Of a stretch of DNA of 64,000 bases, positions 52,203 to 54,051 are shown piece after piece. Within the stretch, counting starts at the first letter, position 1, and each line of letters opens with the position of its first letter. The translations under genes were made by a program, and so were the position numbers. Under the pieces are notes generated by a model, which was not told the origin of the DNA, did not search any database, and saw nothing but the letters and a program-made list of their open reading frames with translations. Source of the stretch: Armatimonadota bacterium (GTDB taxonomy: Bacteria > Armatimonadota > UBA5829 > DSUL01); NCBI GenBank assembly GCA_025998755.1, contig AP024674.1, positions 1,416,162-1,480,161 of the forward strand, in the 5' to 3' direction.

Positions 52203-53156
52203 GTGACGGACGAACAGAGACAGGCGGATCTGCAACTGCTCGCCGAGCTTGCCGCTGGCGAACATGCGGCCATCGTCCAGTATATGATTCACCGATTCTA
52301 CTGCGGGGAAGGAGAGATCGGCTGCGAGATCGAGGAGGTAGCCCGCCGGGAGATGGTGCACTGGAAATGGCTGAACGAGCGGATCGTGCAGCTCGGCGGA
52401 TCTCCAGCGCTGGAGCGCGGCGAGATGATGATCGGAGGTCCCTCCCTGGCGGATATGATCCGGAAGGATGTGGAACTCGAGGAGCACTGCATCCAGGAAT
52501 ACAGCGCCGCCATCGAGCGGACATCCAATGAGGTGCTGAAGCGGCAGTTCCGGATGCATCTGGCGGATGAGCAAAGGCATCGCGAGACGTTTCTGGAGCT
52601 TCTGCGCGAAGCCGAAGAGCTGCAGGACTCGGGAGAGACGCCCCACACACCCACAGAGCAGGAAGAGTCCTTCATCCGGATGCTGAACGGCAATGTGGGA
52701 CACGAGTATGGCGCGGTGCTGCAGTATCTGCATCAGTCGCACGCCACGAAGGATATCGAAATGTCTCGCGCCACGCTGAACGCGGCCATCGATGAGATGA
52801 AACACATATCCTGGTTCGCGGACGCGGTGGTGGAGCTGGGTGGAGACCCGGTGATGGAGCCGGCTGAGGTGGTGCGCGCCGAGACGGACGAGGGACGCAT
52901 GCAGGCGAACATCCAAGACGAGGCTCACGCCCGGCAGATGTACGCCGAACAGATTGCGCGCTTCAAAGAGGCCGGGCGCGAAGACCTGGCCGAGTTGGTG
53001 GCCTTTGTCCGGGATCAGGAAACGTTCCATCTGGAGGACTTTCAGCATCTGCTGGAGCAACTGAAGGAGGCCGGGGACGTCCAGGCTGACAAGGAAGAGG
53101 TCAGGAAGTTGAAATTGACCGTCGGATCCCTGTTCGGCGAGCCTCAGGGACGTTGA
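52203..53156 (+). CDS. Tandem ferritin-like protein with C-terminal encapsulin-targeting peptide
   Basis: 317 aa from GTG with AAGGAG 6 nt upstream. Two four-helix ferritin-like domains in one chain. Domain 1 (about 8-140) has candidate ligands E20, E50xxH53, E94, E123xxH126. Domain 2 (about 150-290) has E168, E198xxH201, E240, E273xxH276. Both sets follow the E...ExxH...E...ExxH diiron pattern, so neither half looks dead. After a charged linker (DVQADKEEVRKLK) the protein ends LTVGSLFGEPQGR, whose LTVGSL core matches targeting peptides of encapsulated ferritins. The next gene, 46 nt on, is the encapsulin shell. No rubredoxin CxxC, so not a rubrerythrin. Expected role: iron oxidation/storage inside the shell. 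Confidence 0.87.
   Translation: MTDEQRQADLQLLAELAAGEHAAIVQYMIHRFYCGEGEIGCEIEEVARREMVHWKWLNERIVQLGGSPALERGEMMIGGPSLADMIRKDVELEEHCIQEYSAAIERTSNEVLKRQFRMHLADEQRHRETFLELLREAEELQDSGETPHTPTEQEESFIRMLNGNVGHEYGAVLQYLHQSHATKDIEMSRATLNAAIDEMKHISWFADAVVELGGDPVMEPAEVVRAETDEGRMQANIQDEAHARQMYAEQIARFKEAGREDLAELVAFVRDQETFHLEDFQHLLEQLKEAGDVQADKEEVRKLKLTVGSLFGEPQGR
53115..53144 (+). other. Encapsulin cargo-loading peptide coding segment
   Basis: Encodes LTVGSLFGEP, near the C-terminus of the ferritin-like protein; the last three residues (QGR) follow. It is the segment expected to dock on the inner face of the shell. Confidence 0.75.
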
Positions 53157-53202: not shown

Positions 53203-54051
53203 ATGTCGGATTATCTAATGAGGGACGCAGCTCCGCTGACCGAGGCGGAGTGGGAGAGCATTGACAGCACTGTCTTGGCGGTGGCGAAGCAGCAGCTGGT
53301 TGGCCGCCGCGTTCTGCACATCTTCGGACCGCTGGGCGCGGGCATCCAGTCCGTGCCGACTGAGCGGCTAGCCGCGCCATCGCCCGGCTCCATCAGCTTT
53401 GAGGGATCGGAGGATGCAGCTATCGAGGTGGCGGGGCGTGACCAGACGCCGCTGCTGATGGTGCACAAGGATTTCTGCCTGAACTGGCGGGCACTGGAGA
53501 CCAGCCGGCAGATGGGACTGCCTCTGGACACGGGAGCGGCGGCCGCCGCGGCGGCGGTGACAGCCAGAGCGGAAGACCGCCTCATCTTTCTGGGAGACCA
53601 GGAAGCCGGCGTGGAGGGCCTGCTGACCGCAAAAGGCCGGCGCACCCTTGCCCTCTCGGATTGGAGCGAGTGTGGGTCGGCGTTCGACAACCTGGTAAAT
53701 GCGGTGGCCGTGCTGAGCGGCGCGGGATACACTCCGCCCTATGCCGCGGTCCTGAGCCCGGACCTGTTCGCTTGCCTGCTGCGGGTCTACAAGGACTCGG
53801 ATACGCTGGAGCTCACGCATGCGAAAGAGGCTCTGACGGGCGGCGTTTACGAGTGTCCGGTGCTGGGACAGAAGCAGGGGGTGGTTCTGGCTCTGGGACG
53901 GCAATACTTCGACCTGGCCGTGGGGCAGGATCTTGCGACAGCGTATCTGGAGTCGCGGAACCTGAACCATTACCTGCGGGTGATGGAGACCATTGCGCTG
54001 CGCATCAAGGATCCCGGGGCCATCTGCGCTCTGACGAAGGGCGGCAAGTGA
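53203..54051 (+). CDS. Family 1 encapsulin (linocin M18-like) nanocompartment shell protein
   Basis: 282 aa, HK97-fold shell. The start YLMRDAAPLTEAEWESIDSTV with VGRRVLHIFGPLG matches the N-terminal helix and first strand of encapsulins. Middle: FLGDQEAGVEGLL (as in RGCEKSGVKGLL of the Thermotoga protein), then YAAVLSPDLFACLLRV. The end FDLAVGQDLATAYLESR followed by RVMETIALRIKDPGAICAL fits the A-domain to C-terminal part. A run of eight alanines with glycine (TGAAAAAAAVTARA) lies in the E-loop/spine region. GGGGGA precedes the ATG. The cargo gene is directly upstream and a palindromic terminator directly downstream, so the two form a compact pair. Confidence 0.93.
   Translation: MSDYLMRDAAPLTEAEWESIDSTVLAVAKQQLVGRRVLHIFGPLGAGIQSVPTERLAAPSPGSISFEGSEDAAIEVAGRDQTPLLMVHKDFCLNWRALETSRQMGLPLDTGAAAAAAAVTARAEDRLIFLGDQEAGVEGLLTAKGRRTLALSDWSECGSAFDNLVNAVAVLSGAGYTPPYAAVLSPDLFACLLRVYKDSDTLELTHAKEALTGGVYECPVLGQKQGVVLALGRQYFDLAVGQDLATAYLESRNLNHYLRVMETIALRIKDPGAICALTKGGK

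Follow-up and report, generated by a model that had tools for sequence, protein, structure and literature searches.

A tandem cargo gene lies upstream of an encapsulin gene

We analyzed a 64,000-nucleotide stretch of DNA (the window) in which an intact open reading frame with a GTG start (positions 52203 to 53156, forward strand) encodes a 317-aa protein. Its residues 1 to 141 (52203 to 52625) make up a ferritin-like four-helix bundle, unit 1, and residues 152 to 292 (52656 to 53078) make up another, unit 2. In the secondary structure of the model described below, the bundles are separated by a linker of about 10 residues (142 to 151; 52626 to 52655). The C-terminal tail (residues 293 to 317; 53079 to 53153) was modeled at low confidence, with pLDDT below 50, and is presumably flexible. 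Within it lies a predicted encapsulin targeting peptide, LTVGSL, at residues 305 to 310 (53115 to 53132).

The next gene starts 46 bp downstream on the same strand (53203 to 54051) and encodes a 282-aa family-1 encapsulin shell protein (PF04454, E value of 2.5e-70; NF041155, E value of 6.2e-80), the sole PF04454 match in this genome. Cargo gene and family-1 shell gene are a two-gene unit. A single LTVGSL targeting peptide and an encapsulin partner are also what an earlier, sequence-only reading of this DNA had described. An Rfam scan of the window found no RNA families. The same genome also encodes a second, single-bundle bacterioferritin-like protein that lacks a targeting peptide (L029 1492-2004; G000:C1:502436).

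The cargo consists of two ferritin-like bundles

The Pfam Ferritin family (PF00210) matched the 317-aa protein as two stretches, with an E value of 1.2e-20. Compared with each other, the two halves matched in both phmmer (E value of 1.4e-12) and blastp (26% identity, E value of 2e-10), so the repeat did not arise by chance. An AlphaFold2 model, built on an alignment of only 5 sequences, had a mean pLDDT of 83 and a pTM of 0.73. It contained four helices in unit 1 (residues 3 to 34, 38 to 63, 82 to 106, and 110 to 141) and four in unit 2 (residues 152 to 181, 185 to 211, 229 to 256, and 260 to 293). The double Pfam match, the homologous halves, and this prediction for the full chain confirmed that one chain holds two four-helix units, as first read from the sequence.

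The nearest solved single chains to the model in a Foldseek search were bacterioferritins, with TM-scores by target length of mostly 0.7 to 0.85. The 50 matches that Foldseek listed, from a library extending to April 2026, did not include PDB entry 9viw, a sequence match treated below. The window protein scored 38.3 bits against the NCBIfam bacterioferritin model TIGR00754, far under the cutoff of 125.55. Its TIGR04535 and EncB family scores were also below cutoff (21.9 versus 125 bits and 29.7 versus 90 bits). Taken together, the fold and the targeting signal are well supported.

We also considered EncFtn. Proteins of this type are encapsulin cargos with a TVGSL- or TIGSL-type tag and a diiron ferroxidase, and the window protein shares the first two features and is predicted to share the third. 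However, EncFtn chains are short, about 130 aa in the phylum of the window, and it takes two of them together to make up the diiron site. Length, the presence of eight helices instead of a short two-helix chain, and the scores under cutoff ruled out this assignment.

Tandem cargos occur in two phyla

Among 291 genomes of the window's phylum, we found five full-length tandem proteins, all TVGSL-bearing and all encoded directly upstream of an encapsulin. The architecture and tag proposed in the sequence-only reading thus stand beside encapsulins in other genomes as well. The rest of the encapsulins in this phylum mostly had an EncFtn-length cargo, or no ferritin-like gene was found beside them; the encapsulins at L061 to L063 and L069 (genomes G018, G042, G020, and G233) had no ferritin-like gene detected alongside. 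Three genomes of the phylum, grouped as f42 (G253 at L081 and L182, G254 at L083, and G252 at L085), encode a single-bundle bacterioferritin-like cargo directly upstream of the encapsulin. This cargo is 164 to 169 aa long, with complete diiron ligands and PTVGDL or PTVGDM near the C terminus. In G253 (L182 47-2003), the genes downstream of this cargo and its shell include ones whose N termini read as flavodiiron-protein-like and peroxiredoxin-like, gene neighbors that suggest an oxidative-stress setting.

A tandem-profile match was present in 74 of 136 genomes of a second phylum, centered on genome G299; most matches were full length and a few were partial. Judged from its small genomes and from a mention of Aquificae in published work, this phylum is likely Aquificota. 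Of its tandem-bearing genomes, 69 were checked and 66 of these had an encapsulin, versus 0 of 7 genomes without a tandem protein, which were hand-picked rather than random. We read 70 tandem loci in this phylum (L104 to L173) and detected a shell gene beside the cargo in only 8, so the shell gene lies elsewhere in most such genomes.

Searches for relatives on plasmids and in viral contigs found none, and a scan of genome contigs found only the relative from the window's own genus. Two other phyla, sampled by 82 genomes around G334 and 9 genomes around G325, yielded no tandem protein. A sweep of 397 genomes returned one single-bundle protein and no tandem protein. The single-bundle protein, which is bacterioferritin-like and comes from another phylum (G347; L100 1375-1908), has an apparent twin-arginine (Tat-type) N terminus (SRRGFVKQATLGAAALG).

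For the comparisons below, we used 75 tandem proteins from the two phyla, which are not independent of each other: once clustered at 60% identity, they amount to an effective number of about 10. A tag-like C terminus, similar to that of the window protein, was present in 72 of the 75. On a tree of the single domains, all unit-1 sequences fell on one side of a branch (support 93/91), and all unit-2 sequences fell on one side of another (92/91). The units of the window protein lay inside the same two groups as those of the other tandem proteins. Since unit 1 and unit 2 each make one group, a single old fusion is the simplest reading for all tandem proteins seen. The single-bundle f42 cargos joined unit 2 (93/91); their form may have preceded the fusion or may have lost unit 1. 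Unit 2 of 9viw was on a long branch, its exact position being unsure. An alignment that mixed single with double proteins misplaced units and was left out of the results.

A complete second diiron ligand set is rare

Both units of the window protein carry the bacterioferritin diiron pattern E, ExxH, E, ExxH. By alignment, the ligands are E20, E50, H53, E93, E123, and H126 in unit 1 and E168, E198, H201, E240, E273, and H276 in unit 2. The claim of two complete sets therefore stood in the main, except for one residue. The ligand that helix C of unit 1 contributes had been given as E94 and is E93, which is invariant across the 75 tandem proteins and falls, in the alignment, on the helix-C glutamate of other proteins of the bacterioferritin type.

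The unit 1 set (EEHEEH) was complete in all 75 tandem cargos. That of unit 2 was complete in three, namely, the window protein, a relative from the same genus, and one from the same family, and at least one ligand was lost in the other 72. The helix-B glutamate of unit 2 is replaced by serine in 47 of the 75 proteins and the helix-D glutamate by serine in both f6 genomes, while the remaining proteins with an incomplete unit 2 show several ligand losses. In one genus (L171 to L173; genomes G537, G538, and G536), unit 2 is shortened and most of its iron ligands are gone, with the heme-position methionine and an FTIGDL tag retained.

Ligand sets were complete in the single-bundle relatives used for comparison, among them the f42 cargos and the solved bacterioferritins. 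Because these are complete and the losses in unit 2 differ, the full ligand set is probably ancestral. On the alignments, the full unit 2 set was probably kept in the family of the window and lost more than once elsewhere. The variant with two intact centers is thus rare among the homologues sampled, whose tandem proteins came from two phyla only.

A methionine pair is invariant in tandem cargos

In bacterioferritins, the heme methionine holds the heme between two subunits. It is described as a strictly conserved residue of mini-bacterioferritins that most bacterioferritins also have and that the other members of the ferritin family lack (PMC13168243). In the window protein, Met51 and Met199 sit at this position, within the first ExxH of each unit, after the Glu and before the His. 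Both were invariant in the 75 tandem cargos, also where unit 2 had lost iron ligands. The only invariant residues of unit 2 were Y169, A195, and M199, and the iron ligands varied. In the alignment used for the tree, several single-bundle relatives have V, T, or L in place of this methionine.

The heme propionates of mini-bacterioferritin contact Arg13 and Tyr28 (PMC13168243). Judged by eye on the printed alignments, these contacts are apparently not kept in the tandem proteins, so the heme pocket is not fully conserved. Still, the methionine pair suggests that a heme probably lies between the units. The simplest reading of the sequences is that unit 2 was kept partly for its half of an intramolecular heme site.

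The window protein resembles a described cargo type

Andreas and Giessen in 2021 (PMC8346489) had already reported "bacterioferritin" cargos that consist of two bundles and carry targeting peptides. Eren et al. in 2024 (PMC11202242) named this cargo "Bfr-like FLP," earlier "Flp + Flp," and showed a structural model; "Bfr" is another name in use for it. Giessen and Silver 2017, as far as it is cited in later work, also concerns this cargo. In the papers found, the tandem cargos were predicted from sequence and models, and their function was called unknown.

Like the window protein, a Bfr-like FLP is one chain in which a linker connects two successive four-helix bundles, and it has a long disordered C terminus and a family-1 targeting peptide. 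It is likewise encoded with a family-1 encapsulin and has a conserved diiron site in bundle 1. The difference lies in the second center: the diiron center is described as generally conserved only in the first bundle, with the second varying (PMC11202242), whereas unit 2 of the window protein is complete. This description holds in general and does not strictly define the type.

PDB entry 9viw (306 aa), deposited as Bacterioferritin, is a full-length match to the window protein. Its sequence is that of the tandem protein of genome G535, including a tag-like end, FTIGGL. Searching the literature for 9VIW brought up no paper on this entry. In unit 2 of 9viw, serine replaces the helix-B glutamate (ESHEEH), while that unit of the window protein is complete. 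Mini-bacterioferritin (9qq4) and classical bacterioferritins share the EEHEEH pattern and the heme-position methionine with the window protein. However, these have a single bundle per chain and no targeting peptide, and their dimer forms between chains and not within one.

The sequence-only reading had proposed a new cargo class, and the same fusion turned out to be already described as an encapsulin cargo (PMC8346489 and PMC11202242). The published architecture, tag, and shell association, the solved structure of a homologue, and the shared tree groups all argue against a new class. In its favor, two complete centers fall outside the published general description and were seen in only 3 of the 75 homologues. 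We regard a new class as very improbable. What survives of the novelty claim is an unusual variant whose second diiron site is intact in its ligand residues, a feature that those reports do not describe.

A proposed single-chain bacterioferritin dimer within the shell

Our explanation, which we hold with good confidence, is that the window protein is a known tandem bacterioferritin-like cargo, i.e., a single-chain dimer that would have a ferroxidase center in unit 1 and, in this lineage, another in unit 2, probably binds heme, and has its iron mineralized in the shell. The two bundles would pair within one chain as an antiparallel dimer of the bacterioferritin kind, and the tag would dock this chain in the interior of the shell. 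Incoming Fe(II) would be oxidized at the diiron centers and mineralized in the lumen. With less certainty, and by analogy to bacterioferritins, Met51 and Met199 may hold one heme across the internal pseudo-twofold axis, and this heme may carry the electrons needed to release iron. Most relatives have lost the unit 2 diiron center and kept the methionine; in these, unit 2 would act as heme partner and scaffold. In the family of the window, where unit 2 keeps the full ligand set, one tag would bring two ferroxidase centers, although a working second center is less certain.

One alternative is that unit 2 has no working ferroxidase and is mainly structural or a heme partner, its intact set being a remnant. 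The 72 of 75 homologues that lost at least one unit 2 ligand, together with invariant Met199, imply that the class needs no second iron center. However, three genomes from two genera retain all six ligands even though their tandem proteins have clearly diverged, with 57% identity over the whole protein between the genera. This suggests continued selection, and we consider a remnant unlikely. An oxygen or peroxide scavenger in the shell, with a rubrerythrin-like or peroxidase role and no iron storage, seems more doubtful still. The Pfam Rubrerythrin family also matches the window protein, and the single-bundle version with its shell at L182 lies beside the flavodiiron-protein-like and peroxiredoxin-like genes. 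Yet the Ferritin match is the stronger of the two, bacterioferritins are the nearest structures, and no rubredoxin domain was found.

The tag may also place a 12-subunit cage of the protein's own inside the shell, a cage in a cage, an arrangement that Eren et al. 2024 (PMC11202242) put forward on the basis of modeled relatives. This idea extends the single-chain dimer explanation rather than opposing it, and we see it as possible at somewhat less than even chances. We are similarly tentative about the fullest form of the explanation, an encapsulated single-chain heme bacterioferritin with two working ferroxidase centers, a heme between Met51 and Met199, and possibly a 12-subunit cage. In it, the class would have kept unit 2 for its heme half-site while the iron center decayed, the lineage of the window excepted.

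That lineage offers a natural comparison of two intact centers versus one in many relatives of the same architecture. With the invariant methionine pair, there is a concrete reason for keeping a degenerate unit 2, namely, a shared heme site, which, if true, would bring heme-assisted iron release into encapsulins. Our survey also suggests that tandem cargos are common in the G299-centered phylum and that their genes often lie apart from the shell gene. Andreas and Giessen (PMC8346489) sought cargo up to 5 kb from the shell gene, and a neighborhood search of that size would therefore miss many of them.
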